Assembly: GCF_025153525.1 (NCBI RefSeq)
Contig: NZ_JANZNR010000008.1
Coordinates: 124,001 to 188,000 of the forward strand
Source of the DNA: Psychroserpens sp. SPM9
GTDB lineage: Bacteria; Bacteroidota; Bacteroidia; Flavobacteriales; Flavobacteriaceae
DNA length: 64,000 bases
Direction of reading: 5' to 3'
In this document: positions 8,488 to 26,613 of the stretch, piece by piece
How positions within the stretch are numbered: the first letter of the stretch is position 1
Layout of the letters: each line of letters opens with the position of its first letter
Program-made: the position numbers and the translations under genes
The notes under the pieces: model-generated
Seen by the model: the letters and a program-made list of their open reading frames with translations, nothing else
Told to the model about the DNA's origin: nothing
The model's database searches: none

Positions 8488-8697
8488 TTTTTATGATTTT
8501 GAATGGATTGCTGCTATTGTGATTGCGTTAGACACGTAGCTTAAAAATACGACTATTTTGATAAAGTAAGCATTTGTTTGGGAGCTACGTTCTTGAGCTG
8601 TGTTTTATACATTAAAAATTTTTTAAGCTATCAATTTTTTTAGCCATTTTCTTGCTTGGTTTTAGTTGTTGTCAATCGTTTTATTATAGTTGATTTC
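8488..8697. other. Gene-free spacer with inverted repeat ACGTAGCT/AGCTACGT
   Basis: No coding frame is seen. An exact 8-bp inverted repeat lies at 8534-8541 and 8583-8590 around an AT-rich 41-bp centre. It may be a decayed or different palindromic element preceding the repeat copy at 8698-8813. Confidence 0.4.
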
Positions 8698-8813
8698 GTA
8701 CAAGTAGGCAACGCATTAAGGTGATACAATATAGTGAATTGTGAGGAATGGTTATGCACTTAGCCAACAGCAACAATTAAATAATATCATTACATTATTG
8801 GCAACTGGTTTTT
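8698..8813. repeat. Array repeat, copy 1 (subclass B)
   Basis: It aligns by eye with the copy at 9277-9396: an ACAAGTA start, ATACAATATAGTGAAT in the middle, CTTAGCCAACAGCAA later and the shared end TTGGCAACTGGTTTTTA. It sits between the DUF2200 gene and the next VOC gene. The remaining bases to 8836 show nothing else. Confidence 0.65.
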
Positions 8814-8836
8814 AGGAGTTGTCTACATAAACCTAA

Positions 8837-9220
8837 TTAGATATCATCGTTAATTTCAATCCAATAGCCATTTATGTCTTGAAAGTAGATTTGTTTTATG
8901 CCATCTTTTCTTATATAATCTTTGTTTGGTGTATCCAGCCAATCAGAATAATCAATTTTTAATTTTTTTAGATGTTCTATAAATGAATTTATATCGGTTG
9001 TGGCTAAAGCAAAATGAACAGCTTTATTAATTTTTATTTCAGAATTGGGACGAGGAATCAGATGAAGTTGTTTTCCCTCATACAGCGATAACCATCTTGT
9101 TTTTGAGTTTGAAGCTGTGTTTTCAATTTCTTGAAGTTGCAGTACTTTTTTATAAAACGCAACAGATTCATTTACATTTTTAACTGAAAGCGCTATGTGG
9201 TTGAATGAAAAAGTAAGCAT
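8837..9220 (-). CDS. VOC (glyoxalase/bleomycin resistance) family protein
   Basis: 127 residues with two beta-alpha-beta-beta-beta modules: FNHIALSVKNVNESVAFYKKVL at the N-terminus and VHFALATTDINSFIEHLKK followed by KQIYFQDINGYWIEIND at the end. Metal ligands of the VOC fold are plausible at His8, His68 and the C-terminal Glu (WIEI). It might be a glyoxalase, dioxygenase or antibiotic-binding protein; the substrate cannot be read. It is a single-gene unit flanked on both sides by array repeats. Confidence 0.88.
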   Translation of the reverse strand: MLTFSFNHIALSVKNVNESVAFYKKVLQLQEIENTASNSKTRWLSLYEGKQLHLIPRPNSEIKINKAVHFALATTDINSFIEHLKKLKIDYSDWLDTPNKDYIRKDGIKQIYFQDINGYWIEINDDI

Positions 9221-9276
9221 TTATTGAGTTTTTTAGATTATAATAATGTTAAAGAAGACCCTAATGTTTAAAGTTT

Positions 9277-9396
9277 GTTGGTGGCATACAAGTACGCGCT
9301 AATTGTTGCATAACAATATAGTGAATAGTAAGAGAAGATTCTGCCCTTAGCTATCAGTAATAATTAATTTTATATGTTATGGCAACTGGTTTTTAA
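9277..9396. repeat. Array repeat, copy 2 (subclass B)
   Basis: About 120 bp containing TACAAGTACGC, GTTGCATAACAATATAGTGAAT, a short imperfect hairpin AGAGAAGATTCTGCCCTT and the end TATGGCAACTGGTTTTTA. The end overlaps the stop codon of the VOC gene that follows on the minus strand. Confidence 0.7.
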
Positions 9397-9905
9397 TTTG
9401 AATAAGCACCAGAAGAATATGTTAGTTCATAGCTATGAGTGTAAATTTCAAATACAATTCCAAATGGATCTTCAACATAGCACATTTTGAAAGGTTTATC
9501 ATTTGGATAGTATTCCCTTATTGGCATTCTTTGTTTTCCTCCATAAGACAAAATTTTATCAATGAGTGCTTCAATATTTGGGTCTTGTACACAAAAATGA
9601 AATAGACCCGTATTGAAAGGATTAAATTCAGGTGCTTCTTTGATGCCATTTGGGAACGAAAATAATTCAATTCCAATTCCGTCTGAAGTTGCTAAATGAG
9701 CAATTTCAAATTCCGTCCAATCGTCTCCAAAAACGTCAATACACATTTGCCCAATTGCAGTTTCTTTTTCTTTTTTGACTTTTGAAGGCTCCATGATTAT
9801 GTACCAGCCCATTACTTCCGAATAGAATGTTACTGCTTCTTTTATATTAGGGACTGTTATGCCGATATGGGAAAATGATTTTGGATAATTTTTATTAGTT
9901 GTCAT
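9393..9905 (-). CDS. VOC family protein, second copy type
   Basis: 170 residues. VOC modules: FSHIGITVPNIKEAVTFYSEVMGWYII near the N-terminus, LFHFCVQDPNIEALIDKI in the middle and MCYVEDPFGIVFEIYTHSYE near the end. Likely metal ligands are His13, a His in the middle module and the C-terminal Glu. It is longer than and only distantly similar to the VOC protein at 8837-9220. It is transcribed divergently from an HxlR regulator at 10027, with a good promoter and two inverted repeats in the 121-bp gap, so it is probably induced by an electrophile or small aromatic sensed by that regulator. Confidence 0.88.
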   Translation of the reverse strand: MTTNKNYPKSFSHIGITVPNIKEAVTFYSEVMGWYIIMEPSKVKKEKETAIGQMCIDVFGDDWTEFEIAHLATSDGIGIELFSFPNGIKEAPEFNPFNTGLFHFCVQDPNIEALIDKILSYGGKQRMPIREYYPNDKPFKMCYVEDPFGIVFEIYTHSYELTYSSGAYSN

Positions 9906-9923
9906 AAGTTATATTTTAGATTG

Positions 9924-9954
9924 CAAAATTAATCTATATTTGCTTTATTGGCAA
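9924..9954 (-). promoter_or_regulatory. Promoter of the VOC gene at 9393-9905
   Basis: On the minus strand: TTG (9954-9952), a 20-bp spacer, then TAATTTTG (9931-9924), matching the Bacteroidota consensus. Transcription would begin near 9917, a dozen bases before the ATG. Confidence 0.72.
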
Positions 9955-9959
9955 TAACT

Positions 9960-9993
9960 TACTAAAAGGTAGTATAGTTACTAAAAAGAGTAA
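9960..9993. promoter_or_regulatory. Two inverted repeats, putative HxlR-regulator operator
   Basis: TACTA-N5-TAGTA at 9960-9974 and TTACT-N6-AGTAA at 9978-9993 lie side by side in the divergent gap, just upstream of the VOC -33 box. HxlR/YodB-type dimers bind short TACT/AGTA palindromes, so these are good candidates. That they are bound by the neighbouring regulator is inferred. Confidence 0.5.
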
Positions 9994-10026
9994 AATACTG
10001 ATAATTAATAATATAAATCTTAAATT

Positions 10027-10338
10027 TTGAATAAAGAAAATAGTTGTCCATTGAATTACACAATGAATTTAATAGGGACAAAATGGAAACCATTAGTTCT
10101 ATTTCATTTATTAGAAGGCGGTTTGCGTTCAGGAATATTACAAAAGAAAATTCCAGGTATTTCAAATAAAATGTTTACCCAAACAGTGAGGGATTTAGAA
10201 AAGGACGGACTTATTTCTAGAAAAGTTTTTCCTGTGGTTCCTCCTAAAGTGGAATACACGTTAACGACCAGAGGGAAATCACTTGAGACTATTTTAAGAA
10301 GTTTGGATACTTGGGGTTTGAAAGATTGTAAGAAGTAA
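10027..10338 (+). CDS. HxlR family transcriptional regulator
   Basis: 103 residues starting at a TTG codon, which gives the usual HxlR N-terminus MNKENSCPLNYTMNLIGTKWKPLVLFHLLEGGLR. A Cys sits at position 7, where redox- or electrophile-sensing members carry their reactive cysteine. The winged helix follows (ISNKMFTQTVRDLEKDGLISRKV, then VEYTLTTRGKSLETIL). It is the only plus-strand gene in the 8-26 kb array and is divergent from a VOC protein, the common regulator-target arrangement for this family. Autoregulation through the repeats at 9960-9993 is likely. Confidence 0.9.
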   Translation: MNKENSCPLNYTMNLIGTKWKPLVLFHLLEGGLRSGILQKKIPGISNKMFTQTVRDLEKDGLISRKVFPVVPPKVEYTLTTRGKSLETILRSLDTWGLKDCKK

Positions 10339-10379
10339 TGTGAGATGTGCTCGATTTCAAACTTTCAGTAACAGCAATT

Positions 10380-10841
10380 TTATTCAGCTGCTTTTAAATC
10401 TAGGTTTTTGGTTTTACTTAGTTCTAATTTTTGAACAGCTAATTTTAGATCTTTTATTTGTCCGTAAAGATTATTCCAAGGTTCAGCATTTATCTGAAAA
10501 GTTTCTGTGTTTTTTCCTAGAGCATTTTTATACTTAATAACAAAACCTCTAAAAAAATCCAATTCGATAATTTCATTGATGTTTAGGGATAGTTCTTTTT
10601 TTCCGCCAAATAGCGAATAACTTTTGATGTTTATATCGTCCCGATTTATTACAATTTCAAGTAAGATTTTCTTTTCCCTAACCATTAGATACGTTGGGTA
10701 AACTAAATAGATGAGCCAAGCATACCATTCAATTGGCTTAAATGTATTTATAAAATATAGTAATAATCCTCCAATTATAAAATTTCCAATTAAACTCCAG
10801 AATAATGATAATTTAAGATTCTTAATTAAGTGGTCATTCAT
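10380..10841 (-). CDS. Hypothetical membrane protein with two TM helices
   Basis: 153 residues. Two hydrophobic segments at about 11-31 and 39-54 are separated by a short loop (NTFKPIEW). A soluble C-terminal part of about 95 residues with beta character follows (LEIVINRDDINIKSYSLFGGKKELSLNINEIIELDFF), resembling the PH-like domains found after two TM helices in small bacterial membrane proteins. No specific family is recognised. It converges with the HxlR gene and is followed upstream by a repeat copy. Confidence 0.65.
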   Translation of the reverse strand: MNDHLIKNLKLSLFWSLIGNFIIGGLLLYFINTFKPIEWYAWLIYLVYPTYLMVREKKILLEIVINRDDINIKSYSLFGGKKELSLNINEIIELDFFRGFVIKYKNALGKNTETFQINAEPWNNLYGQIKDLKLAVQKLELSKTKNLDLKAAE

Positions 10842-10879
10842 TTTGCTATGAGTGAGTTTTGATGCTTGTAAACGAATTT

Positions 10880-10998
10880 GTGTATGGTTTCGTTACTTAC
10901 AAATACGCAATAATTCTTTGTGATGCAATATAATAAAAGTAAAGAAGGAACATCATCTTAACCAACTTGCATAGCATTAATTATATGCGTTGTTGTGC
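10880..10998. repeat. Array repeat, copy 3 (subclass B)
   Basis: It starts GTGTATGGTTTCGTTACTTAC, contains GATGCAATATAATAAAAG and CTTAACCAACTTGCATAGC, and ends AATTATATGCGTTGTTGTG. It lies between the hypothetical membrane protein and the lipoprotein gene at 11031. Confidence 0.75.
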
Positions 10999-11030
10999 AA
11001 GGTTTTAATTTTAAAGTCTGAATAGTTTGA

Positions 11031-11378
11031 TTATTGTTTGACTATAGTCGTCACAGAGAATTTATTTTTTGAAAATGTTGTGTCAATTACAAAACTTACC
11101 TTATCAGCTGTAAATTCTGGATTATTATTTTTACGTACCAATTTCACAATCCGTTTTCTCTCTTTAATAAAAGTTGATTCTTTTATGGATTGTCCCTTTT
11201 TAAATTTCGTTTTATCCATATGAGTGTACAATAAATCTTTAATACTACTATCCGTAACATTATAATCAACCATATCTAATTTATAATCAATTGCAGTAAC
11301 GCTTGCCTGCTTTGAGGTACTACAGTTAATGAAGCAAGTGATGGATAATAGTGCAAAAATTAATTTAAGAGTTTTCAT
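11031..11378 (-). CDS. Small lipoprotein, unknown function
   Basis: 115 residues: signal peptide with lipobox INC (Cys19), then a charged mature part with SIKDLLYTHMDKTKFKKGQS and a C-terminal FVIDTTFSKNKFSVTTIVKQ. No family is recognised. It is a single-gene unit bracketed by a subclass B repeat downstream and a subclass A repeat upstream. Confidence 0.6.
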   Translation of the reverse strand: MKTLKLIFALLSITCFINCSTSKQASVTAIDYKLDMVDYNVTDSSIKDLLYTHMDKTKFKKGQSIKESTFIKERKRIVKLVRKNNNPEFTADKVSFVIDTTFSKNKFSVTTIVKQ

Positions 11379-11409
11379 ATGTTTTGAATTTAAGTTTTTA
11401 TAGTTTCAG

Positions 11410-11527
11410 GATTCCTAGTATTGGCTGGAACTAAGTTAGCAAAAATGAAAGGAACAATTAGGAAAACCCGATAGGATTTTCCGAGTACACACAGAACCAT
11501 CAACTAGTTATACACCTTGTTGTGCGT
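11410..11527. repeat. Array repeat, copy 4 (subclass A)
   Basis: It contains GGCTGGAACTAAGTTAGCAAAAA, a hairpin GGAAAACCC-gata-GGATTTTCC (one internal mismatch), CCGAGTACACACAGAACCATCAA and the end AGTTATACACCTTGTTGTG. It lies between the AraC gene stop and the small lipoprotein start. Confidence 0.8.
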
Positions 11528-11543
11528 TAGTTTTACTCTCTTT

Positions 11544-12428
11544 TCAACTAGCAGATGCCCTATCAAAGCCAACGGTTTCTCTATATAGCTGTGGTGAAAT
11601 TTCAACATTTTTTTTAAAAAACCTACTAAAATAGTATTCGTCATTATAGCCTAACTCAAAAGCAATTTCTTTAATTGTTTTATTGGTTAAATACAATTCT
11701 CTTTTGGCTTCTATAATGATACGTTCTGATATTAAATTGGTTAATGTTTTATTGTAATGGGTTTTGGTAAGTTTTGTTAATGCTTTTGGTGTAATTGCTA
11801 GCATATTGGCATATTCACTAGCAGAATGCACTGTTTTGTAATGTTTTTCAATATAATTTTTTAAATTCTGTAAAATGAAGGGTTCTTCGTTATTGGTGTT
11901 TGTTTTTATTTCAATGGTCTGCTGTTCTGTTTTTAATCTTGATCCGGTTATTAAAAATATTTTTAAATAGGATATTAATAACTCATATTGAGCTAAAGCA
12001 GACTTTCTCATTTCGTCTTTGAACAGCTCTATTATCATTTCAAAACTTGCTGCAGCTTTGCCTTCAACTTGAACTATAGGTGGGTTGTAAATATTGTTAA
12101 ATAATACACCCTGACAAGCAACCTCTTTGTGATGTTTATGAATACAAAAAAAGTCGGGATGAAAATGAATTACCACACCACTTATGTTTGCTTTAGTGCA
12201 AAGCATAAATGGTTGGTAAGGTGAAAAGGACAACAACATATTTTCATTAAAATCGTATTCAGAAAAATCAGCTTTTAAGATACCATTCCCTTTTTGGATC
12301 CAAATGAGTGAGTAATAATTTAGTCTCTGGATATGGTCAAAAGGATTATCTTTTTCTAAATGATATATTTTAAATGCTAGATTACCCGTTTGCGGATTAA
12401 TAAGTGTGAAGTTGTTGTTTTGTATCAT
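11544..12428 (-). CDS. AraC family transcriptional regulator
   Basis: 294 residues. An N-terminal cupin-like sensor (about 1-110, with LIWIQKGNGILKADF and MLLSFSPYQPF) is followed by a linker and a C-terminal double HTH (about 190-285: HSASEYANMLAITPKALTKLTK and KTIKEIAFELGYNDEYYFSRFFKKNVEISPQLYR). It is the third gene of a minus-strand group with DUF1348 (11 bp upstream) and an AhpD-like protein, and probably controls that group. The effector is unknown. Confidence 0.93.
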   Translation of the reverse strand: MIQNNNFTLINPQTGNLAFKIYHLEKDNPFDHIQRLNYYSLIWIQKGNGILKADFSEYDFNENMLLSFSPYQPFMLCTKANISGVVIHFHPDFFCIHKHHKEVACQGVLFNNIYNPPIVQVEGKAAASFEMIIELFKDEMRKSALAQYELLISYLKIFLITGSRLKTEQQTIEIKTNTNNEEPFILQNLKNYIEKHYKTVHSASEYANMLAITPKALTKLTKTHYNKTLTNLISERIIIEAKRELYLTNKTIKEIAFELGYNDEYYFSRFFKKNVEISPQLYRETVGFDRASAS

Positions 12429-12439
12429 TATTCAACATT

Positions 12440-12859
12440 TTACATGAGTTTTCTTTCGCTTTCTTCAATTTTTAAATCGTTTATACTAGCGTAACGTTTT
12501 TTCATGAGTCCATTTTCATTAAATTCCCAAAGTTCATTGCCATAAGCTCTGTGCCATTGGTCGTTTTTATCTTGAAATTCATACTCAAATCTAACAGCCA
12601 TTCTATTTTCTCTAAAACCCCATAGTTCTTTTTTTAGTTTATAATGTTTTTCGTTTTCCCATTTCTTAGTTAAAAATGCAATAATTTCTTCTCTTCCGTT
12701 AATAAATTGTGTTCTATTTCTCCATTCAGAATCTATGGTGTATGCGTTTGAGACTTGTATGGGGTTTTTGGAATTCCATGCATCTTCTGCTTTTTGAACT
12801 TTTTCAAGTGCAGATTCTAAATTAAATGGGGGAAGCGGATATTTTTTTTCTTGATTCAT
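12440..12859 (-). CDS. DUF1348 / NTF2-like (SnoaL) protein
   Basis: 139 residues matching the DUF1348 family from end to end: [71 protein letters not shown] and the C-terminal [18 protein letters not shown]. It is a cone-shaped NTF2-like fold, probably a small enzyme or binding protein. It is often found with stress or xenobiotic genes, but the reaction is unknown. It lies between an AhpD-like protein and an AraC regulator. Confidence 0.92.
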
Positions 12860-12882
12860 ATCTTAATTAGTTTAAAAGTTAT

Positions 12883-12920
12883 AAATAAAGGAAATATGAC
12901 AGCCCATATTTCCTTTATTT
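12883..12920 (-). terminator. Perfect 16-bp hairpin between the AhpD-like and DUF1348 genes
   Basis: Stem 12883-12898 pairs exactly with 12905-12920 around the loop ACAGCC. It begins 4 bases after the stop codon of the AhpD-like gene in the direction of transcription. The stem is AT-rich and the following run is only moderately T-rich, so it may be a partial terminator or mRNA stabiliser rather than a full stop. Confidence 0.6.
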
Positions 12921-12923
12921 GCT

Positions 12924-13469
12924 TTAAATGGTTACAGCTAAAGGGAAATCTACAGGCACTTTAGTGAGATTGTGTAAATAATTCATAGCTGTTTTATCAC
13001 TCACTTGAAGTATTACATCCACAAGATTTTCTTTAGTATATCCTTGAGCAAAAAAGTCCTCTACATTTTCATTTTTAGCTTTACCTCTGTTTTGAGTGAT
13101 ATCTGCTGCCAATTTTACTAATGCATTTAATTTAGGATTTTCACTTCTTCCTTTTCTTATATCTAATAATTGTTCATCATTAAAGCCATTCATTTTTCCT
13201 AATACTACATGTGCACTTTGACAATAAACACATTCATTTACCTGACTTACAATAAGGTTTACGGCTTCTTTCTCCTTGTTGTTTAATGAGGTTTTTGCAT
13301 TTTGATAGTCTAAAAATCGTTTTAAGCCATTGTCTGAATACCCTATTGTTGCATAAAGATTAGGCACAAATCCTAATGCTTTATTTAAATTGTCAAAAAT
13401 CTCTTGATTGGTTTGAGATACTTCATCTCTTGTTGGAACGTTAAATTCTGTTTTAGATAAATTTTCCAT
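12924..13469 (-). CDS. Carboxymuconolactone decarboxylase / AhpD-like protein
   Basis: 181 residues, all-helical AhpD-like fold. The redox motif is NECVYCQSAHVVLGKMNGF (CxxC plus downstream His), as in alkylhydroperoxidase D-like proteins. The N-terminal part FNVPTRDEVSQTNQEIFDNLNKALGFVPNLYATIGYS is also typical. It probably reduces peroxides or acts on a reactive small molecule in the cytosol. It is the first gene of the group ending in the AraC regulator, and a perfect 16-bp palindrome lies just upstream. Confidence 0.92.
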   Translation of the reverse strand: MENLSKTEFNVPTRDEVSQTNQEIFDNLNKALGFVPNLYATIGYSDNGLKRFLDYQNAKTSLNNKEKEAVNLIVSQVNECVYCQSAHVVLGKMNGFNDEQLLDIRKGRSENPKLNALVKLAADITQNRGKAKNENVEDFFAQGYTKENLVDVILQVSDKTAMNYLHNLTKVPVDFPLAVTI

Positions 13470-13490
13470 TTTTTTATTCTTTAAAATTGC

Positions 13491-13506
13491 TTGTCAATAT
13501 TGACAA
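13491..13506. promoter_or_regulatory. Perfect 16-bp palindrome upstream of the AhpD-like gene
   Basis: TTGTCAATATTGACAA reads the same on both strands and lies 22-37 bp upstream of the ATG at 13469, just downstream of a weak -7-like CAACTTTG on the minus strand. This is the position expected for a repressor site over the transcript start. The binding protein is unknown. From 13507 to 13649 nothing else was recognised. Confidence 0.6.
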
Positions 13507-13649
13507 TACAAAGTTGATGAAGAATGAAATAGTGTAAAATGGATAATTCTCGTTTATAGATGGACGATTTTCTTAAATACGATTTAATTGTGATTTATGT
13601 TAAACATTTCTCTTGTTATTAATTGGGTTTTCTTATACAGGGAATGATA

Positions 13650-13777
13650 TATAACGTGTGGGTGATTAATTGCGTTAGGAAAAACTGAGTTAGTAAATAG
13701 AAAACGAACCAGAGGAATATCAGCGAGCATTTTCCGAGTACACACGAAGCAAAGCATGGATTATACCTGGTGTTAGG
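13650..13777. repeat. Array repeat, copy 5 (subclass A)
   Basis: It starts ATAACGTGTGGGTGATTAATTGCGTTAGG, continues GAGTTAGTAAATAGAAAACGAACCAGAGG, has a weakened hairpin, then TTTTCCGAGTACACACGAAGCAAAGCA and the degraded end GGATTATACCTGGTGTTAGG. It fills the gap between the AhpD-like and esterase genes. Confidence 0.75.
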
Positions 13778-13778
13778 A

Positions 13779-14708
13779 TTAGTTTTTTATCCACTCAATT
13801 GAACTTTTCGACATTTTTTTATAGTCGTGACCTATATTTTTCACAGTATCTATTTCCCAATTAAACTTCCAATTATTTTTATTCTTCAATTCCTTATTCG
13901 CGTTAAAAAAGGTGGTTCCACGTTCTAATCTATGTGCTCCTTGTTTCATAGCCAATTCCGTTGTTCTGAAAGTTCCTAAACTAGGGTCATTGTCTAATTC
14001 TCCTAATAAAATTATCAATCTTTTATTGAAAGACTTTTGTAAATCTATTTCTGTGTTTTGAATGCCATAGGGAAATTCAAGATCCTTATTCGGTAAACTA
14101 TAAAATCCAGAATTAGCTGCGATAGCTGTTCCAATTCTGGATTCAGGCATTAGCATTACCATCCTATGTACAAATTGTCCGCCAGCCGAATGTCCAAATA
14201 TATCATATTGTTCGTTTGTAATACTGTTAACCGATTTGATATGGTCAAAAATATTTTCTACGATCGTATATGCCCACTCGCTTTTTGGGTTTTTAGTGCC
14301 AAAAAAAGTAAATAAATTTCCCTCTTGGTAATCATTGGTAGTATATTTCGAAAATTTATTCTCGAATTCTGGTGCGACTATTAACAAATTATTTTTGTCT
14401 GCTAATTCTACCCAAGCATTTAAATAGTCTTCTGCATTTCGTCCTCCGCCGTGCATAACAAAAACTATTTGGTCTTTGTCATTCCAATTTTCAGGTTTGT
14501 AAGTCCATACCCTAATCGTTTTTCTCTCACTACTTTTATAAGCGTTAATTACAAAAGAGTCAATACCCTTATCGATTTTTTTAATTGGCGTAATTTCAGG
14601 TCCTTTTGGTAGTACATATAGGTAAACGTAGCCTGTAACTGAAAGAAGTAAGAGGATTGAGAAGGTATATATAATTCCCTTTTTTAAAATTCTTAAAGCC
14701 TTATTCAT
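13779..14708 (-). CDS. Alpha/beta hydrolase (esterase/PHB depolymerase-like), membrane-anchored or secreted
   Basis: 309 residues. An N-terminal hydrophobic helix (about 11-30) anchors or exports it. The hydrolase core has VFVMHGGGRNAEDY (oxyanion strand) and the nucleophile elbow GHSAGG with the catalytic Ser. A late Asp (LLGELDNDPS) and His (NIGHDYKK) complete a plausible triad. This layout is common in feruloyl-esterase or PHB-depolymerase-like enzymes acting on extracellular esters. It is a single-gene unit between repeat copies. Confidence 0.82.
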   Translation of the reverse strand: MNKALRILKKGIIYTFSILLLLSVTGYVYLYVLPKGPEITPIKKIDKGIDSFVINAYKSSERKTIRVWTYKPENWNDKDQIVFVMHGGGRNAEDYLNAWVELADKNNLLIVAPEFENKFSKYTTNDYQEGNLFTFFGTKNPKSEWAYTIVENIFDHIKSVNSITNEQYDIFGHSAGGQFVHRMVMLMPESRIGTAIAANSGFYSLPNKDLEFPYGIQNTEIDLQKSFNKRLIILLGELDNDPSLGTFRTTELAMKQGAHRLERGTTFFNANKELKNKNNWKFNWEIDTVKNIGHDYKKMSKSSIEWIKN

Positions 14709-14839
14709 TTAGTTAAATATTTATGATTGCTCAAATCTAAATCTATTTGGTAATTTACAGAATTTTTTATTTCCGAACTGTATTTTTTCAAGGACGAAGT
14801 GTTAATCAAATTAATTTTAATGTGTTTATGTGGCTATTT

Positions 14840-14902
14840 GTGGTGTTATGTTTAAGTTAACACAACAAGCCAAACCGTGAATTATATATGGTATTTGCAA
14901 CA
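14840..14902. repeat. Array repeat, copy 6 (partial)
   Basis: Only the two ends are recognisable: GTGGTGTTATGTTTAAGTTAACAC and then CAACAAGCCAAACCGTGAATTATATATGG, ending ATTTGCAACAGTTTTT. The internal hairpin is missing. It lies between the azoreductase and esterase genes. Confidence 0.5.
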
Positions 14903-14906
14903 GTTT

Positions 14907-15530: not shown

Positions 15531-15596
15531 TTTTTTCTAATTTTTGAATAATGAAGCAAAGTTCTATAATGAGAATAAGAAAAATATTGACCTAGT

Positions 15597-16178: not shown

Positions 16179-16199
16179 TCAAATTGTTGTCGATGTAAG

Positions 16200-19286: not shown

Positions 19287-19447
19287 AATTAATTTATTTG
19301 TAAATATTCAGGCTTATCTTTTTTTAAATTGTAATTAGACATTTTATGTGTGCTCTAGATTTATACATTTTATCAGATTTGCTATAATCTTTTTATGAAT
19401 GTATAATTAATCCTTTTGGAGCTCTATTATATTTTAAGGCTTGACAT
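19287..19447. other. Gene-free spacer
   Basis: AT-rich leader region of the Sel1/YwqK gene. I see no convincing promoter box, coding frame or hairpin here. The rest of the 640-bp gap holds a probable gene remnant and a repeat copy. Confidence 0.5.
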
Positions 19448-19711: not shown

Positions 19712-19770
19712 TTAGACGAATTTTAAATAGAATTTTTTAATTGGTTTAGCGGCTGGCCATAATGAAGGCT

Positions 19771-19902
19771 AACGTGTTGTTTATGATGTTGTTGTATTGG
19801 TTTGGTCTAAGGTAGTAAAACAAATCGAATCAAAGGAATATTCCGCAGAAATTTTCCGAGCACACACGAACCGAACAATAAATTATACAGGTTATTGCCA
19901 AC
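19771..19902. repeat. Array repeat, copy 8 (subclass A)
   Basis: It begins AACGTGTTGTTTATGATGTTG, continues TTTGGTCTAAGGTAGTAAAACAAATCGAATC, has hairpin GGAATATTC-cgca-GAAATTTTCC, then CCGAGCACACACGAACCGAACAATA and the end AATTATACAGGTTATTGCC. It lies downstream of the VCBS-repeat gene on the minus strand. Confidence 0.78.
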
Positions 19903-19926
19903 TGTGCTTTATTTCAATTAGTTTTT

Positions 19927-22900
19927 CTATCGTTTTATTATTTTTTTCCATTCAACTGAGTTATGAATGTCTTTTAATTCAATAATATAAATTCCAGATT
20001 CAAAATTTGATAGATCTATAGAGTCTGAATGAGTACATAAATACATAAGTTGACCTATACTATTATATACTTTTACAATACTAATTGGCAGATTAGATGT
20101 AATTGATAAAAGACCATGTGTTGGATTTGGATACAATTTAAAAATTGATTGCGTATTATCTTGAATAGAAAGCTCATCATCAATTATCTCAGTGGAAACA
20201 GTATTTGTAATTATCGGTGGATTAAAATCAAAATATATTTCAGCAGTATTGAAAATAATATTACCAACAATAACATCATTCTTAGGCTTTATTTTATACG
20301 CTACAAAACCATGAGAATTAAGTTCGTCATTAGTGCTGTCTGGTAAATTAATGTCATCAAAAATAAAATTTATTTCACTGCCATTTGTGATTTCTACTCT
20401 GCCTGTATGACTTAAACTCTCAAGTTGCATAGTTGTCCAATCCAATTTTTGATCTAATGTATTGCTAACTCTGACATTTATAGCACTAGCGGTTCCGGTA
20501 TTTTGAAATCGAATTACATAATGCAAATATTTGTCAACATCTTCAAATAGTATTTCGTCTCCTTCTAAAACTGTAATGTCATTTGGGTCGTAAGAGCCAA
20601 TAACAGTTTGTTCAAAAGAAAATACGTTATCGTTTTCAGTCGCATCATTGGTAATAGGGTTAATTGTAGCTGTAAAAGCTAAGATATCATCAATATTTGT
20701 TGTAGGTGGAGTAAGTATATTAAAATCTAGATTAATAGTTCTAGTTTCAAACGGATTTAAATCTGAAAAATCAAATGTAACTATTCCAGCAGACTGTGAA
20801 TTTATAGATTCACTAGCTCCTAAAAAATTCATTTTAGAACTGTCAAATTGAAAAGTTATAGAACCAGTCAATTGTTCTGTACCAATATTTTTATAAACTA
20901 TTTGATAGGATGTATCAAAACCTGGTCTTGGATCATCTAAATCTGGAATGATACTAATATTTAAATCGTTAATAATTTGGATAGGTTCTAAGCAGAAATC
21001 TCCTATAAATGAATCATTTGTGTTTGTGAAAGTCACAGCGTAAAAATCAGGATTAGATTGGTAATTATTTTCAATTGGCGAAATAATTGAGACATCATAT
21101 TCACCACTAACAACATTTATAAGGTAACTGCCATTTTCTTGTGTAAATGAAGCAAAACTTTCATTAAGCTTTTCTGCTATAACTAAAACGTTAGGGATTT
21201 CTAGATCATTATCGTCACAACCGTTAGAATTTAAATCAAGTTTTATAGTACCAGTAATTTGATTGACAATGCCTAAATTTTCATGAATGATTATCTTATC
21301 AGAACCTGAAGAAATAACATCCATATCTCCATCATTATCAATATCTATGGTAAATACTGATTTTGCAAATTCTACATCTAATGAGATGATTTTTTGAGAA
21401 CTAAAACTTCCTAGTCCGTTTTGATTTTCATACCAAGCTATTTTTCCATCTCCTTCTGATGCAGAAATAACATCCATATCACCATCATTATCTAAATCAC
21501 CAGCAGTTACTGCTCTAGCTCCATCTGCATTAGTAGAAATAATTTGTTCTACACCAAAATTACCCAGTCCATCTAAATTTTCATACCAAGCTATTTTATC
21601 ATCAATATCTGATGCAGACAAAACATCCTCATCTCCATCACCATCTATATCGGCAGAATAGACAGAATATGCAGAATTAGCAGTTAAAGTTATAATCTTT
21701 TCGTTAGAGAAATTCCCTAAACCATCTAAGTTTTCGTACCATGCTATTTTATCTTGAAATGAAATAGCAGATAGAATATCCATGTCTCCATCATTATCTA
21801 TATCTGAAGCATAAACTGAACGAGCAGAAAGAGCATTATCAGTTATTGTATTTGCTGAAGAGAAAGCTCCTACGCCATTTAGGTTTTTATACCATACTAT
21901 TTCATTATTATTATTTGAAGCAACAACGATATCAATCAAATTATCACCATCAATATCAGCTGATAATAAACATGGTACTCCAGAAATGTCGTTAGCAATA
22001 TCATTCTGAGTAGCTAAAAAACCAGGCCCTATATTTTCAAGCCAAAATGCATTATTTTCAATATTAGTTACGGCAAAGACATCAACAAAATCATCGTTAT
22101 TAATGTCTGTGGGTAATACACTATAAATGTTATTATTAAACGTAGATACAAATTGTGGTGAAGGGTTATCAAAATCACCGCTAATATTTTTTATCCAGAT
22201 CAGCTTATCATGATTAGGATTTGAATAGCCAGACAAAATATCTGTATTACCATCGTTATTAAAATCTGCTTGATGAACAGAGCCTACCTGACCATATCCA
22301 ACATTTATTGTCAATTTAGGAAAATTAACTCCACTAGAATTATTATAAAACCAAACAACTTCACTCATTTGATTTTCAATACTAGAACCTGCTATTACAT
22401 CAAAAACTCCATCATCATCAATATCTGCAACACTTATAGTTTTCACATCATCTGAGTTATCTGAAATAATATTTTGGTTACCAAAATTACCATTACTATC
22501 TAAGTTTTCATACCATGCTATTTTACCATCATCTTCTGATGCTGAAAGAATATCATTATCACCATCATTATCAAAGTCTGTTACAAATATTGAACGAATT
22601 CCATTAATTTCAGTCGTTATAATTTGACTCGATCCAAAATTCCCTAAGCCATCTAAATTTTCTAACCACACTAAACGATCTGAAAGTGTTGAAAATGTAT
22701 AATATCCAACAATTAAATCCATATCTCCATCATTATCTAAATCAGAAGATGCGATAGACTCAGCCTTGTAAAATTCTAACTGATCTATTATGATTTCATC
22801 ACTAAAATCCCCAAGTCCATTAAGATTTTCGTACCAAATTATCTTTTCTTCTGTAAATGAATTAGAAATTATATCCATATCTCCATCCATATCTAAATCT

Positions 22901-23490
22901 ACTGATATTACTGAGTGAGGCTCTGCAGTAATTGATATAATTTGTTGGTTTCCAAAATCGCCTAAGCCATTTGTGTTTTCATACCAAGCAATTTTATCGT
23001 CATCTCTTGACGCTGAAACAATATCATAATCACCATCTCCGTCAATATCTGCGGATATTATACTTAATACATAATTCAAATCACTTGAAATCATTTGTCT
23101 ATCGCCAAAATTTCCTAATCCGTCCATGTTTTCACACCAATATATTGTATTCTCAAAGGATGAAGCATAAACAACATCTTTATCACCATCATTATCAAAA
23201 TCTTCTACAAAAACACTACTAGGCTGACTTGAGCCCGTCTCAATTTCAGCAATAACATTTAGTTTACTAAAATCGGTAGCAGCTTCAAGGTTTTCAAACC
23301 ATCCTATTATATCATGTGTAGCGACTAATAAATCACTATCACCATCATTGTCAAAATCTACCGAAATAATTTGATGGACATCACCACTTATTTTGTCAGT
23401 ATCTAAAATGGTATTATCCAAAAACCCAATTTGAGAATTACAAATAGTAAAGCAAAGACAAGCTAACAGTAAAGATAGTTTTAGTTTCAT
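19927..23490 (-). CDS. Large secreted FG-GAP/VCBS-repeat protein with T9SS sorting domain
   Basis: 1187 residues. The signal peptide ends near NSQIG. Roughly residues 25-740 are a dozen or more FG-GAP/VCBS repeats with calcium-type loops such as DIDGDGD, DLDNDGDMD and DFDNDGDND, separated by IAWYENLDGLGNFG-like linkers, giving a beta-propeller or propeller pair. A carboxypeptidase-regulatory-like module follows (TGTIKLDLNSNGCDDND), then DUF11-like beta domains. The C-terminal ~75 residues (LYPNPTHGLLSI, FESGIYIIELKD, ending KKIIKR) are a type A T9SS sorting domain, so the protein is exported by the gliding/PorSS machinery to the cell surface. It probably acts in adhesion. Confidence 0.92.
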   Translation of the reverse strand: MKLKLSLLLACLCFTICNSQIGFLDNTILDTDKISGDVHQIISVDFDNDGDSDLLVATHDIIGWFENLEAATDFSKLNVIAEIETGSSQPSSVFVEDFDNDGDKDVVYASSFENTIYWCENMDGLGNFGDRQMISSDLNYVLSIISADIDGDGDYDIVSASRDDDKIAWYENTNGLGDFGNQQIISITAEPHSVISVDLDMDGDMDIISNSFTEEKIIWYENLNGLGDFSDEIIIDQLEFYKAESIASSDLDNDGDMDLIVGYYTFSTLSDRLVWLENLDGLGNFGSSQIITTEINGIRSIFVTDFDNDGDNDILSASEDDGKIAWYENLDSNGNFGNQNIISDNSDDVKTISVADIDDDGVFDVIAGSSIENQMSEVVWFYNNSSGVNFPKLTINVGYGQVGSVHQADFNNDGNTDILSGYSNPNHDKLIWIKNISGDFDNPSPQFVSTFNNNIYSVLPTDINNDDFVDVFAVTNIENNAFWLENIGPGFLATQNDIANDISGVPCLLSADIDGDNLIDIVVASNNNNEIVWYKNLNGVGAFSSANTITDNALSARSVYASDIDNDGDMDILSAISFQDKIAWYENLDGLGNFSNEKIITLTANSAYSVYSADIDGDGDEDVLSASDIDDKIAWYENLDGLGNFGVEQIISTNADGARAVTAGDLDNDGDMDVISASEGDGKIAWYENQNGLGSFSSQKIISLDVEFAKSVFTIDIDNDGDMDVISSGSDKIIIHENLGIVNQITGTIKLDLNSNGCDDNDLEIPNVLVIAEKLNESFASFTQENGSYLINVVSGEYDVSIISPIENNYQSNPDFYAVTFTNTNDSFIGDFCLEPIQIINDLNISIIPDLDDPRPGFDTSYQIVYKNIGTEQLTGSITFQFDSSKMNFLGASESINSQSAGIVTFDFSDLNPFETRTINLDFNILTPPTTNIDDILAFTATINPITNDATENDNVFSFEQTVIGSYDPNDITVLEGDEILFEDVDKYLHYVIRFQNTGTASAINVRVSNTLDQKLDWTTMQLESLSHTGRVEITNGSEINFIFDDINLPDSTNDELNSHGFVAYKIKPKNDVIVGNIIFNTAEIYFDFNPPIITNTVSTEIIDDELSIQDNTQSIFKLYPNPTHGLLSITSNLPISIVKVYNSIGQLMYLCTHSDSIDLSNFESGIYIIELKDIHNSVEWKKIIKR

Positions 23491-23500
23491 AAGTACATTT

Positions 23501-23522
23501 TAATTATACACGTTGTTGTGCG
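23501..23522. repeat. Array repeat, copy 9 (terminal half-motif only)
   Basis: Only the end motif TTAATTATACACGTTGTTGTG remains, filling most of the 36-bp gap between the DUF6090 stop and the VCBS-repeat gene start. Confidence 0.6.
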
Positions 23523-23526
23523 TTCG

Positions 23527-24324
23527 TTAGTTTTTGTCTTTCAGTTCAGATTCAATTAAATTCAATATATTATCTGTGTAATCTAACATTTTAACATACA
23601 AGTTTAATCGATTATTTTCAACACCCATTTTCATAAAGAGTGGGTGTAGAATATTTGGGTTATGATATAATTCTATTAATTTTTTATTCTGAAACTCAAT
23701 ATCATTTTTAAAAGCTTTGCTTAAGCCAAAAGATTGTCTAATTCTATTGTCTAAAAATAATCCTCCAATTGATTTAAATTCAATATGTAGTGTGTTTAGT
23801 AAATTCATAGATAATGTTTCATCTTCGAATCCTTGATTGATTTCCGCTGAAAATAAGGCTAATTTTGATTTAAGATTTTCACTTTTCAATATTTTTAAAT
23901 CTCCACTTCCAATCAAAGCTTGATAACTTCCAACAATAGGTTCGGTTCTATAATAATTAAAAGCTCCATAGTAGATAAATCTACCAACAGAGTCTCTCTT
24001 ATATTGCAAATCTTTTCTTTCTAAGCATTCTATAAGTGATTTACAACTATTAATTACAAACGTCTGTTTATCGATTACCTCTGAATATATTTTTTTGTTT
24101 TCAATAAAGTCTTTTTGCAGAGTTTTAAGTATTAATATTTCACTCTTTTTTTCTTTTTGTTTTTCATTCCAATTATTGATACTTAATGCAATTAAAATTC
24201 CAATGACCACTAGGATAATCTCTCCGATTGCATATTTAAAATACCTGCCTGTCCGGCTGGCAGGCTTTCCAGTTTTGTTTTTTTTCATGAGGTCGTATCT
24301 TATTTTTCTAAAGAATTTTATCAT
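23527..24324 (-). CDS. DUF6090 family membrane protein (second copy)
   Basis: 265 residues. The N-terminus MIKFFRKIRYDLMKKNKTGKPASRTGRYFKYAIGEIILVVIGILIALSINNWNE is very like the protein at 16327-17109, including the palindrome-encoded KPASRTGR insert. After the TM helix (about 36-51) the two diverge almost completely, as expected for members with a fixed anchor and variable extracytoplasmic domain. It sits only 36 bp upstream of the large T9SS cargo gene. Function unknown. Confidence 0.85.
   Translation of the reverse strand: MIKFFRKIRYDLMKKNKTGKPASRTGRYFKYAIGEIILVVIGILIALSINNWNEKQKEKKSEILILKTLQKDFIENKKIYSEVIDKQTFVINSCKSLIECLERKDLQYKRDSVGRFIYYGAFNYYRTEPIVGSYQALIGSGDLKILKSENLKSKLALFSAEINQGFEDETLSMNLLNTLHIEFKSIGGLFLDNRIRQSFGLSKAFKNDIEFQNKKLIELYHNPNILHPLFMKMGVENNRLNLYVKMLDYTDNILNLIESELKDKN
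24244..24264. repeat. GC-rich palindrome inside DUF6090 gene (copy 2)
   Basis: The same 21 bp as at 17029-17049, with arms CCTGCC/GGCAGG, in the same reading phase. Flanking bases are also identical for about ten positions on each side, which could reflect gene duplication rather than two separate insertions. Confidence 0.75.
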
Positions 24325-24344
24325 TGGTTAATTATAATGACGCA

Positions 24345-24468
24345 TAACGTGATTATATATGGTTAGAAGTATTAGAGAACTAAGTTAGCAAAAAAGAAAG
24401 AAGAGTGCGGAAATTCGGTAGAATTTCCCGAACCATCATTAAACACTATTAACTATACACGTTGTTGT
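24345..24468. repeat. Array repeat, copy 10 (subclass A)
   Basis: It starts ATAACGTGATTATATATGGTTAG, has GAACTAAGTTAGCAAAAAAG, a perfect 8-bp hairpin GGAAATTC-ggta-GAATTTCC, CCGAACCATCATTAAACA and the end TTAACTATACACGTTGTTGT. It lies between the LRR and DUF6090 genes. Confidence 0.82.
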
Positions 24469-24500
24469 AAAACATTTAATATTTTTTAATAAAAAATCTT

Positions 24501-25712
24501 TCAAAAATCACACGAATCGCTAACGTTTATGTTATCGATTTCTAGTTCTTTTAAAACAGATTTTATTTTTTCTTCTTCTTTCTTATTGGTACAAATTTGC
24601 CTTAATTTCGGAAGATCGTAAAAATCTATATCTTTTGTGTAGCCCTTTATATTTAAGTGTTCTATGAGGTTGTTTTCTAATTTTAGAGCATCTATATTTG
24701 GAGAATTAGAAATATCCAAAGAAATTAAATTATTGTCATCACAATATAATTGTGTCAAGTAAACTAAACCAGATGTATTCAATGTTTTTAGATTATTCCC
24801 TCCACATCTTAATACTTCAATTTCCAGATTGTTAGAAAGATTTAACTCTGTTAACATATTAGAACCACATTTTAAAACATTTAGGCTAACTAAATCATCT
24901 AAGTTTATTGATTTTAATTGATTTGTGAAACAAACTAAAGATTTTAATTGAGACAAATTAGATACGTTTAAATATTGTAACTCATTAAAAGCGCACTCCA
25001 GTTCAATAAGCTTAGTGCACTTCGAAAAATCTAATGAAGTTATATTATTTGATTTACAACTGAACTCAGTCATGTGAATCATTTTAGATACATCTAAGGT
25101 TTTTAGTTCATTACGAACACAATTTAACTTTTCTACATTAATTAATTTGGATTCGTCTAAGTCAGTTAATTTGTTTGCCGCACAATTTAATTCTATAATG
25201 CTATTAGATTTAGGTAAATTCAGAAACTCCAACTCATTATCTGTACAATTTAAATACTTTAGGTTCTCTAAATTTGATACATCAAGTTTTTTCAATTTAT
25301 TATACCCACAACCTAAGTATTCGAGACTAGTTATATGGTTAATTTCTAATGAAGCTATATCATTACCTAAACACTGAAGAACTGATAAATTTACTAGCTT
25401 ACTTACATCCAGAGAAGTTAATTTATTTCTCATACATTCTAAGTAAATCAGATTTTTGAAACTATTTATTCCTTCTAAGGAACTAATATTGGCTTCAAAC
25501 AATTCTAAATATCCTACTTTTTCGGCTTCACTTATTTGGATTTCGCCATCGTTGTTTGCATCTATATCTAATGAATTTCCATTTAAATCTTTGGCACTTG
25601 TATAACCGGTTTTTAGTAATTCTTTTTTGAAGTTTGCATCAGGAATATGAACCGTTTGTGAGTACAGAGAAGTCGTTAGTACAAGAAAGATTACAATTTT
25701 AAAGTATTTCAT
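24501..25712 (-). CDS. Secreted leucine-rich-repeat protein
   Basis: 403 residues. A signal peptide (IVIFLVLTTSLYSQT) is followed by HIPDANFKKELL, an EF-hand-like loop DANNDGEIQISEAE, then about 13 LRRs of 20-22 residues with consensus L-x-x-LDVSxLxNLxxLxCxxNxL (internalin-like, with Cys at the asparagine-ladder side). The C-terminus DNINVSDSCDF ends without a T9SS sorting domain, so surface export through T9SS is not supported. It is likely a periplasmic or secreted binding protein. Single-gene unit between two repeats. Confidence 0.9.
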   Translation of the reverse strand: MKYFKIVIFLVLTTSLYSQTVHIPDANFKKELLKTGYTSAKDLNGNSLDIDANNDGEIQISEAEKVGYLELFEANISSLEGINSFKNLIYLECMRNKLTSLDVSKLVNLSVLQCLGNDIASLEINHITSLEYLGCGYNKLKKLDVSNLENLKYLNCTDNELEFLNLPKSNSIIELNCAANKLTDLDESKLINVEKLNCVRNELKTLDVSKMIHMTEFSCKSNNITSLDFSKCTKLIELECAFNELQYLNVSNLSQLKSLVCFTNQLKSINLDDLVSLNVLKCGSNMLTELNLSNNLEIEVLRCGGNNLKTLNTSGLVYLTQLYCDDNNLISLDISNSPNIDALKLENNLIEHLNIKGYTKDIDFYDLPKLRQICTNKKEEEKIKSVLKELEIDNINVSDSCDF

Positions 25713-25758
25713 TATAATATCATCTGGTTTTTATTACTGTTATTTGATTAAAATGTTT

Positions 25759-25886
25759 TACGTGTTCGTTTATGGTTAGTTGCGTGTAAGTACGCTATTA
25801 TTTTTTGCTATGCAATATACTAAAAAGTAGGGAAGGACCTTCGTCTTAGCCAACTTGCGAAGCAATTAATTATACACGTTGTTGTA
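25759..25886. repeat. Array repeat, copy 11 (subclass B)
   Basis: It starts TACGTGTTCGTTTATGGTTAG, contains GTAAGTACGC, TTGCTATGCAATATACTAAAAAG, a hairpin GAAGG-a-CCTTC, CTTAGCCAACTTGCGAAGCAA and the end TTAATTATACACGTTGTTGT. Confidence 0.82.
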
Positions 25887-25887
25887 G

Positions 25888-26334
25888 CTAGTTTTTGTGT
25901 TTTAAACTATCAGAGGACTTGTTTTTGGACTTAAAATTGTACGTTTTAAACGTGCTATCTTTTAGTTTCAGAGCTTCGTCCATTTTCTGTAGCTGCATTT
26001 CCATTTCAGCTAATAAACTTTTGATTTTATAATGACCATCAATTAATTCATGAATTTTATTTCCTCCAAGAGAATCAATAGCTTCACTATATGACATTTT
26101 AAAGACTGTGAGATATTCCTTAGCAATGGTATCTCCTTCTTTTGCTTTACTATGTATAATATTTGAGAATTCCTCGTGATTAGAATAATACTTAACCATT
26201 TTATCAAAATCACTTTCTGAATAAGAAATCGAGTCTTTAATGATTTCAATGTTGTCATTCAAGTTCTTATCAGAAGAATTTTGAGCTTCAAGTGACAATA
26301 TAGATAGAAGAGAAAGTAATAAAAGAAACTTCAT
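25888..26334 (-). CDS. Hypothetical secreted/periplasmic protein
   Basis: 148 residues from the ATG at 26334, chosen because it starts a clean signal peptide (MKFLLLLSLLSILSLEAQ); the frame is open 8 codons further up. The mature part is charged and largely helical with a likely coiled coil near the end (KSLLAEMEMQLQKMDEALKLKDS). No family is recognised. Single-gene unit between two repeat copies and the last minus-strand gene of the array. Confidence 0.6.
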   Translation of the reverse strand: MKFLLLLSLLSILSLEAQNSSDKNLNDNIEIIKDSISYSESDFDKMVKYYSNHEEFSNIIHSKAKEGDTIAKEYLTVFKMSYSEAIDSLGGNKIHELIDGHYKIKSLLAEMEMQLQKMDEALKLKDSTFKTYNFKSKNKSSDSLKHKN

Positions 26335-26354
26335 ATAATCTTTAATAATTAACC

Positions 26355-26482
26355 ACAACGTGTTGTGTATGGCTAGTTGCGTTGGTTAGGTCTAATTTAG
26401 TAAAAGAAAACGAACCAGAGGAAAATCCGAAGGAATTTTCCGAGTACATACGAACCAAACAATGAATTATACACGTTGTTGT
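26355..26482. repeat. Array repeat, copy 12 (subclass A, best preserved)
   Basis: 128 bp from ACAACGTGTTGTGTATGGC to AATTATACACGTTGTTGT. The two ends are inverted repeats of each other. Inside are GGTTAGGTCTAATTTAGTAAAAG, AACGAACCAGA, the hairpin GGAAAATCC-gaa-GGAATTTTCC and CCGAGTACATACGAACC. It separates the minus-strand array from the plus-strand NTPase. Confidence 0.85.
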
Positions 26483-26487
26483 ACAAC
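26477..26487 (+). repeat. 11-bp direct repeat, left copy
   Basis: TGTTGTACAAC at the outer end of repeat copy 12; an identical 11-mer is at 30305-30315, on the far side of the NTPase gene. The core GTTGTACAAC is itself a perfect palindrome. Confidence 0.5.
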
Positions 26488-26613
26488 GTTTTTTAATTAT
26501 CATTTTCGTTTTTTTATGACAATATGGCATTGTTTTTTAGGAGATTATTATTAAAATGTATTTTTTTTTTGATTTGGATTGCTTTTTGTTAATGTATTGT
26601 TAAACATATAATT

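Follow-up and report, generated by a model that had tools for sequence, protein, structure and literature searches.

What separates the genes of a bacterial array by copies of one palindromic repeat, and does that repeat move them? The question is raised by a 64,000-nucleotide stretch of the genome of Psychroserpens sp. SPM9 (Flavobacteriaceae; contig NZ_JANZNR010000008.1, positions 124,001 to 188,000; hereafter the window), in which genes and short operons between 8.5 and 26.5 kb are followed by a repeat of about 125 bp. An earlier note on this DNA had proposed gene-plus-repeat modules moved by an enzyme encoded elsewhere and, alternatively, a family of miniature inverted-repeat transposable elements (MITEs) or repetitive extragenic palindromes (REPs). 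Our analysis favours the former: very probably, the repeats serve an integron-like system of Flavobacteriaceae as its attC-like sites, and the window holds a decayed array of this system. As read from its sequence, this system is an integron by layout and logic, and not by its defining parts.

Copies of the repeat in the window and in the genome

We trained a covariance model on 35 copies of the repeat from the genome of the strain (G000; 3.8 Mb in 41 contigs, with the window on contig C40), among them the window copy at 26357-26480. The model identifies ten copies in the window at E-values of at most 1.8e-4, all on the minus strand, 116 to 130 bp long, and spanning 8674-26480. The earlier note had counted twelve. 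Ten are found in full, the copy at 23497-23519 keeps its left half only, and the one near 14840 is seen in a MAFFT alignment and missed by the model. An eleventh match, on the plus strand at 21109-21192 (E 0.065), was taken as due to chance. A search of positions 7000-28000 against Rfam gave three matches, all under the gathering scores and none at the repeats.

Across the genome, the 23-nt left end of the repeat matches 51 times with up to three mismatches, and its reversed pattern, used as a control, matches once. The matches cluster on contigs C3-C7, C9, C10, C12, C36, and C40, with one more on C22. Within each contig they share a single orientation and are mostly spaced by about the length of a gene. 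Given these counts, the clustering, and the common orientation, the repeat of the window is not a product of chance. Searched for across the genome, as the earlier note had advised, the copies lie in arrays on several contigs rather than scattered at random, and the arrays on the other contigs are longer than that of the window.

The cassette and its matching ends

The unit that recurs in these arrays, which we call a cassette, is one gene (or a noncoding stretch) followed at its 3' end by a site of about 125 bp. The site has the form AAC-(3 nt)-GTGTAT...ATACAC-(6 nt)-GTT, and 437 of 444 unique full-length sites start with AAC and end with GTT. The inner arm GTGTAT/ATACAC is swapped in step for GTATAT, GTATAA, GGCTAT, GTGTAA, and other variants. 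Across 187 such variant sites, in-register pairing involves 94.1% of the arm bases, and sliding the arms by 1 to 4 nt leaves no more than 45.5% paired. The different register given by RNAalifold (AACGTGT/ACACGTT; model R1) was rejected, as covariation favours GTGTAT/ATACAC and the arms of the cassettes favour AAC/GTT.

A second pair of arms lies outside the repeat and differs between cassettes. Each cassette starts with GTT-R-N6-A, and its end is the start in reverse complement, the first ~11 nt past the GTT (R-N6-A-TTT) being complementary to the last ~11 nt that precede the AAC of the same cassette, as in GTT-GGCGGTAATT ... AACTACCGCC-AAC. The match flanking each copy is thus inverted and belongs to the cassette. 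Over 10 nt, the ends of 54 cassettes of the strain (gaps of 6000 nt or more excluded) match at 7.06 positions, compared with 3.66 after shuffling (standard deviation 0.21; maximum of 5000 shuffles, 4.52). When the boundaries are defined by a profile, these values are 7.55 and 3.93 for 44 unique cassettes of the same genome, 37 of which match at 7 or more of the 10 positions. Cassettes of other genomes give 7.73 and 3.71 (standard deviation 0.09; maximum of 3000 shuffles, 4.05), with 236 of 273 unique cassettes at or above 7, and those of a closed genome (G002) give 7.98 and 3.71, with 259 of 272. The profile-defined and G002 counts exclude partial sites and cassettes of at most 150 nt or at least 2500 nt; the profile-defined ones also exclude sites near the end of a locus and repeats of the same end pair. 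Position 8 of the arms is a fixed mismatch, A against mostly C: the start has an A in 270 of 273 cassettes (and in 272 of 272 in G002), the complement of the end has G or C in 266, and the two match in five.

Over 263 kb, the closed genome carries 279 full-length sites, every one of them on the same strand, as well as 4 partial ones, an array larger than the superintegron of Vibrio cholerae. They delimit 278 cassette bodies with a median length of 648 nt, six of which exceed 2500 nt. Of the other 272, 196 have their longest open reading frame (ORF) on the strand of the array and 6 on the opposite strand; the remaining 70 lack an ORF of at least 60 aa. Duplications are frequent, with 89 of the 278 cassettes falling into 22 families of near-identical bodies. 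The sites downstream of duplicated cassettes have a mean identity of 0.94, those upstream 0.80, and the background 0.78; the downstream site is the more similar one in 20 of the 22 families. Because duplicated cassettes share their downstream and not their upstream site, the unit is the gene plus its 3' site, as in integrons. The order of the units also changes, cassettes 35, 36, 37, and 38 recurring as 51, 53, 52, and 55.

Comparisons between genomes place the same boundaries. Ten of 48 cassettes of the strain have a match elsewhere at E≤1e-15, mostly partial and at 70-86% identity, and one of its cassettes is found over 728 of 728 nt, at 95.7% identity, in a genome of another genus (G028), from the base after the GTT to the base before the AAC. 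The modules of the earlier note therefore appear to hold: in this genome, in the others, and in G002 their ends lie exactly at the repeats, in G002 they are duplicated and re-ordered, and one is shared between genera.

A MITE or REP-like repeat that sits at gene ends without moving genes would also be a short palindrome following genes, with conserved ends and diverse middles. Such an element is expected to move by itself and to be scattered in both orientations. The G002 sites keep to one strand over the whole array and are duplicated together with the gene that precedes them, the matching arms are specific to the cassette and lie outside the repeat, and the arrays are linked to a recombinase (see below). 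We therefore consider this alternative very improbable, although the earlier note had left room for it.

Folding of the site

Taken singly and as they stand in the array, the window copies show no general excess of folding as single-stranded DNA (z below -2 in 1 of 10), contrary to what is expected of palindromes. Part of the explanation is that each site is completed by an arm of its own cassette. In the form that the site would have in an excised circle, it is predicted to fold better than in the array for the top strand in 107 of 120 sampled G002 cassettes, and for the bottom strand in 110. The mean energies are -23.2 versus -20.1 kcal/mol for the top strand and -26.9 versus -22.4 kcal/mol for the bottom one, which is thus predicted to be the better folder of the two in the circle; joined to the start of another cassette, the top strand gives -20.1 kcal/mol. 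The start and the end of a cassette also pair in the circles of attC cassettes. Two pairs of arms and the fixed mismatch were observed in our sites, and extrahelical bases of the attC kind, which mark the recombined strand in integrons, were not identified.

These properties suggest a mechanism in which a recombinase would excise cassettes as circles and insert them at an attI-like site (described below) or at some other site. Its substrate would be a folded single strand (probably that of the bottom), recombined at the GTT junction. The circle would allow pairing along the whole site, and in the integrated state its right arm would be that of the next cassette, so that pairing would fall back to the inner stem. 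Since full pairing is reserved to the circle, long arms specific to each cassette may bias the system towards capture and away from loss.

The recombinase and its attI-like site

Frames of more than 150 aa in the window were scanned for the motif H-x-[LF]-R-[HR] followed by a tyrosine, and no recombinase was found. Of the proteins of this genome, the one that best matches the IntI family is a tyrosine recombinase of 388 aa. Its gene adjoins one that we read by eye as aroB, and contig C33 ends 154 nt away. Six residues of the protein, which we take to be the catalytic ones (R224, K249, H313, R316, H339, and Y348), are invariant in eight aligned relatives. The ~95 N-terminal residues have no Pfam match in the three proteins scanned. 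This stretch (residues 1-95 of the protein encoded at L128:9995-11173) is conserved among the recombinases, with predicted strands and helices and an invariant W; perhaps it reads the arms of the site.

We scanned one genome per species in 84,980 species, which yielded 391 stretches encoding relatives of the recombinase, and used the best 80. Class A includes those that match at E≤1e-80, and class B the more diverse ones of about 35% identity. Sites are concentrated behind the recombinase: the 80 loci have 210 site matches in 341 kb downstream of it and 8 in 728 kb upstream, six of the latter in L181, whose recombinase is truncated at the end of its contig. When at least 3 kb of downstream sequence is available, 34 of 36 loci have sites, and 181 of 181 sites are co-oriented with the recombinase, by a site profile that was iterated on these same loci. 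The search that the earlier note had proposed, for a tyrosine recombinase with copies nearby, thus succeeds in relatives. A covariance model built solely from the Psychroserpens genome matches 13 of 20 recombinase regions (E≤1).

The association extends to whole genomes. Among 97 relatives of the strain, 56 have site matches, and a recombinase match (E≤1e-40, class B included) is found in 41 of the 43 genomes with at least three site matches and in 11 of the 13 with one or two, a tally that is confounded by kinship and in which the site counts per genome are lower bounds. The idea that the mover acts in trans is supported: in relatives, such arrays have a tyrosine recombinase at their head, and that of our strain lies on C33, outside the contig of the window. 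Class A was detected in 92 of 349 sampled Flavobacteriaceae genomes and in 68 of 237 genera. A search of 247 Bacteroidota genomes gave 10 matches at E≤1e-70, 8 of them in Flavobacteriaceae when the genome of the strain is counted.

Class B is less informative. Its members lie less tightly at arrays than those of class A and do not form one clade, and in L110 the sites occupy the strand opposite to that of the recombinase, for which reason we base no claim on this class. The class B recombinases of L108-L121 are near arrays of the same kind of site, some with a different sequence at the attI position.

Shortly past the stop codon of the gene for the recombinase, which has ~390 aa, relatives have an attI-like motif (consensus ATATAAC-N-[AC]GTT) that abuts the first cassette. 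Of 70 distinct regions downstream of class A genes, 63 have it in a slightly looser form and 59 in the strict one, at a shuffled rate of 0.26%. The motif TAnnTTTG, the form of the -7 promoter motif in Bacteroidetes, is located 25-26 nt before the junction in 24 of these 63 regions (shuffled rate, 2.5%), and TAnnTTT[GA] in 39; it is a candidate for a promoter that would drive the cassettes from the side of the recombinase.

Two further explanations can be weighed at this point. Homologous recombination between repeats could shuffle genes, with the recombinase as a bystander; repeat copies within an array are similar enough to suggest it (on average 78% alike in G002), and some duplicates could arise in this way. 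It leaves unexplained the matching arms with their fixed mismatch, the attI-like site, the position of the recombinase at the head of the arrays, and the presence of the same unit, exact at its ends, in two genera, and we regard it as very improbable. The other explanation is that the cassettes are moved by a true IntI encoded elsewhere in the genome. Passages of one survey describe clusters of attC sites lacking integron-integrase (CALINs) as common (PMC9024848), and passages of another report mention a CALIN carried by the Polaribacter phage P12002L (PMC9892861). The window segment resembles a CALIN in having sites and cassettes without a recombinase of its own by the motif scan. It differs in that the recombinase linked to such sites is not an IntI. 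None of the 97 relatives has a protein over the IntI cut-off (the search gave no match at all, and the same family search was positive in 70 of 247 genomes of the phylum), although 56 have site matches, and the sites cluster behind the class A recombinase. We give this explanation hardly any credence.

Some observations weigh against our own reading, in which these repeats are the sites of an integron-like system headed by this recombinase. The recombinase gene of the strain and its attI-like site terminate contig C33, and because the contig ends there, their join to an array is deduced from the longer contigs of relatives. Two of the 36 loci with long downstream sequence (L147 and L201) have no site, and 7 of the 20 recombinase regions are unmatched by the covariance model; four of these end within ~400 nt, and L094, L104, and L105 do not. 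The attI-like motif is missing from 7 of the 70 class A downstream regions. Many sites and no recombinase match at E≤1e-40 are found in G012 and G041, and conversely such a recombinase match, class B included, is present in 7 of the 41 relatives that lack site matches. Matching is far less frequent at position 7 of the arms (167 of 273), and in 2 of the 22 duplicate families the upstream site is more similar than the downstream one. The cassette shared with G028 (locus L117) lacks a recognisable site after it: from the AAC on, near a contig end, other sequence follows, perhaps an insertion. Finally, clearly matching ends are kept in 2 of 9 window units, and the others match at 5-8 of 13 positions, taking the best over small shifts on covariance-model coordinates.

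Comparison with integrons and Xer recombinases

Integrons (IntI, attI, and attC, including sedentary chromosomal ones such as that of Vibrio cholerae) have the layout found here: the gene of a tyrosine recombinase beside a primary site, in our case a putative attI-like one, and a long one-way array. The unit is likewise a gene with a 3' palindromic site that has inner and outer arms, and the start of the cassette pairs with its end. Unlike that of integrons, the gene of the array recombinase shares the transcriptional direction of the cassettes. The junctions also differ. Passages of the literature give RYYYAAC and GTTRRRY as the core sites of attC (PMC3053210); our junctions have GTT-R-N6-A with cassette-specific arms of ~11 nt, and GTTRRRY is present in 47 of 619 of them and GTTR in 613 (two pooled lists, overlapping in part of G002).

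The recombinase differs from its integron counterpart as well. In one study, intI genes were selected by an IntI-specific additional domain (PMC2426708), which another source describes as not fully conserved (PMC8138268). The array recombinase lacks this insertion of ~42 residues, its residues 268 and 294 aligning to residues 179 and 248 of IntI4, and has the additional N-terminal stretch. The distance from box I to the HxLRH motif is 91 aa in all but one of the 26 class A rows, the exception having 92 aa. It is also 91 aa in the 4 measured of 13 class B rows, 97 aa in the XerD-like protein of the strain, and 133 aa in the 16 measured of 18 IntI rows. From the K box to HxLRH there are 100 aa in the 5 of 18 IntI rows that could be measured, compared with 58 in 24 of the 26 class A rows (59 and 40 in the other two). 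Against the IntI model TIGR02249 the protein scores 216.5 bits, under the cut-off of 265, and against XerC and XerD it scores 174.6 and 173.7.

A tree was inferred from 59 rows: 26 recombinases of class A and 13 of class B, selected from larger sets, 18 of 20 fetched Bacteroidota IntI, and 2 Xer. The IntI sequences are on one side of a branch supported at 100/100, class A is supported at 99/97, and the split of classes A and B from the rest at 93/65. The root is unsettled because the two Xer rows form long branches. An AlphaFold model of the recombinase (mean predicted local distance difference test score 82, predicted template-modelling score 0.51) was compared with solved structures using Foldseek; XerA is the best match (E 7.2e-16), followed by another archaeal Xer and then by IntI4. 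XerA is also the closest match by sequence (5hxy, E 6e-45). The array recombinase is nevertheless unlike XerA, XerC, and XerD in its N-terminal extension, its location at the head of an array, and the attI-like site, and the strain encodes separate XerC-like and XerD-like proteins. The model NF040815 cannot tell it from the XerD-like protein, since the latter also reaches the cut-off of 220 (with 220.3 bits, compared with 222.1 bits for the array recombinase) and 3 of 6 further array recombinases do not.

These data bear on a third explanation, that of an ordinary integron lineage with a divergent IntI that lost its insertion and with diverged attC sites. The identical layout, the higher score of the IntI model relative to the XerC and XerD ones, the presence of IntI4 among the nearest solved structures, the unsettled root, and the modest support for the split of classes A and B all agree with it. 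It accounts less well for a score that falls under a cut-off exceeded by proteins of 70 of 247 Bacteroidota genomes, for the spacing of 91 to 92 aa in every class A row, which is nearer to that of XerD than to that of IntI, for the separate position of the IntI rows, and for the rarity of GTTRRRY. An ordinary lineage is in our view unlikely, though it deserves to be taken seriously.

We lean somewhat towards a more specific form of the integron-like reading: a second kind of integron in Flavobacteriaceae, with a XerA-like recombinase that has an additional N-terminal domain and does the work of IntI without its insertion, and with arms that work as a one-way ratchet favouring capture, present in about a quarter of the sampled genomes. 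Judging from these sequences, Flavobacteriaceae, a common marine family, seem to have a large gene-collecting and shuffling machinery of their own, with a recombinase different from IntI. Among the matches listed in a search of titles and abstract openings of open-licence articles in PMC, we found no description of such arrays in Flavobacteriaceae; as evidence of novelty, this is weak. Models of IntI and attC are the usual means of recognising integrons, and such searches may pass this system over because its recombinase is under the IntI cut-off and its junctions mostly lack the GTTRRRY core. If the reading is correct, cassettes can be captured without the IntI insertion, the recognition of folded single-strand sites can be compared between two natural systems, and its cassettes form a large and little-read pool of genes. 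Arms that match within cassettes and differ between them provide a simple sequence test for such cassettes in other genomes.

True IntI proteins are present elsewhere in the phylum. They exceed the curated cut-off in 70 of 247 Bacteroidota genomes (L208-L227; G138, G139, and others), and among the matches listed all the positive genomes are outside Flavobacteriaceae. This is more than passages of the survey suggest, where one complete integron is named in Bacteroidetes proper, that of Salinibacter ruber M1, an earlier survey by the same authors having only In0 (PMC9024848).

The array in the window

On its right, the window array is bounded by the gene of a YobI-like P-loop NTPase on the plus strand (26614-30276). 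From there it extends leftwards on the minus strand. The intact site at 26357-26480 (AAC...GTT; 88.9 bits, E 1.2e-14; the copy used in training) is followed by a body of 473 nt (25884-26356) with ends that match at 10 of 13 positions and a small gene of 148 aa from its ATG (25891-26334), without a Pfam match. The best-scoring copy of the window (25759-25883; 118.5 bits, E 2.8e-20) has GTA in place of the final GTT. Beyond it, a body (24467-25758) whose ends match at 12 of 13 positions at a 3-nt shift holds the gene of a leucine-rich-repeat protein (24501-25712). The site at 24346-24466 (77.3 bits, E 1.8e-12) is followed by a DUF6090 gene (23527-24324), with relatives that recur in the arrays of this genome, and by the left half-site at 23497-23519, found with the 23-nt left-end pattern, which abuts the gene of an FG-GAP protein with a type IX secretion sorting domain (19927-23490).

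The remainder of the array has mostly diverged sites. Between those at 19771-19896 (48.8 bits) and 16193-16315 (46.2 bits) are genes of DUF6090-like (21.8 bits, under the cut-off of 23.5), MORN, and Sel1 proteins (16327-19286). Genes of a flavodoxin-like protein and of one with a cyclic-nucleotide-binding domain (14907-16178) come next, then the doubtful site remnant of the MAFFT alignment (14825-14910), a gene of 309 aa without a Pfam match (13779-14708), and a diverged site at 13653-13774 (39.7 bits). Genes of an AraC-type regulator, a DUF1348 protein, and a carboxymuconolactone decarboxylase (11544-13469) separate it from another diverged site at 11392-11521 (35.7 bits). A small gene of 115 aa (11031-11378), without a Pfam match, lies between the latter and the well-scoring site at 10871-10994 (88.6 bits, E 1.3e-14). 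Further left are a gene of 153 aa, also without a Pfam match (10380-10841), the gene of an HxlR regulator (10027-10338), and a VOC/glyoxalase gene (9393-9905) from which the regulator gene diverges. The regulator is on the plus strand and is the sole opposed gene among those accepted in the array, in agreement with the earlier note, which had excepted one gene from the common orientation. A diverged site (9263-9378; 45.3 bits), a second VOC/glyoxalase gene (8837-9220), and the last site, also diverged (8674-8791; 35.2 bits), complete the array; a DUF2200 gene (8110-8487) lies past it, with no site on its far side by the covariance model.

With the exception of the 10.9-kb copy, sites left of 20 kb mostly score below those right of 24 kb. 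The far end of the G002 array resembles the window array in its longer bodies and weaker arms, with a mean match of 7.4 over the last 35 compared with 7.9-8.2 before. The window array looks old, decayed, and remote from the recombinase, which is on another contig. We read it as an array that split off or was inserted off-site and that would now be inactive or rarely active.

Contents of the cassettes

DUF6090-like proteins are the commonest identified cargo of the strain, PF19578 being found in 4 of 40 cassette proteins; examples are encoded in the window (16327-17109 and 23527-24324) and in L041, L043, and L054, and several begin with GTTGTGCTTCATTAT. PADLOC matched 1 of the 40 cassette proteins, so by that library the cassettes of this genome are no store of defence genes. 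A cassette body of ~282 nt without an ORF, starting with GTTATATACAATGCC, is repeated with varying neighbours in L041, L042, L043, and L045 (contigs C3, C4, C5, and C7). It resembles the repeated ORF-less cassette of G002 (L090, L123, L124, and L228-L239), which has ~472 nt, no ORF of 60 aa, and 30 copies (e.g., bodies 8, 11, and 14). Several array contigs (L041, L042, L043, L044, L045, L047, and L049) break shortly past a site, at a recurrent CGTACTTTCCTGAAATAG or TTGACCCGTCCTGAATATAGG. These two sequences could be the termini of one insertion sequence that inserts next to sites.

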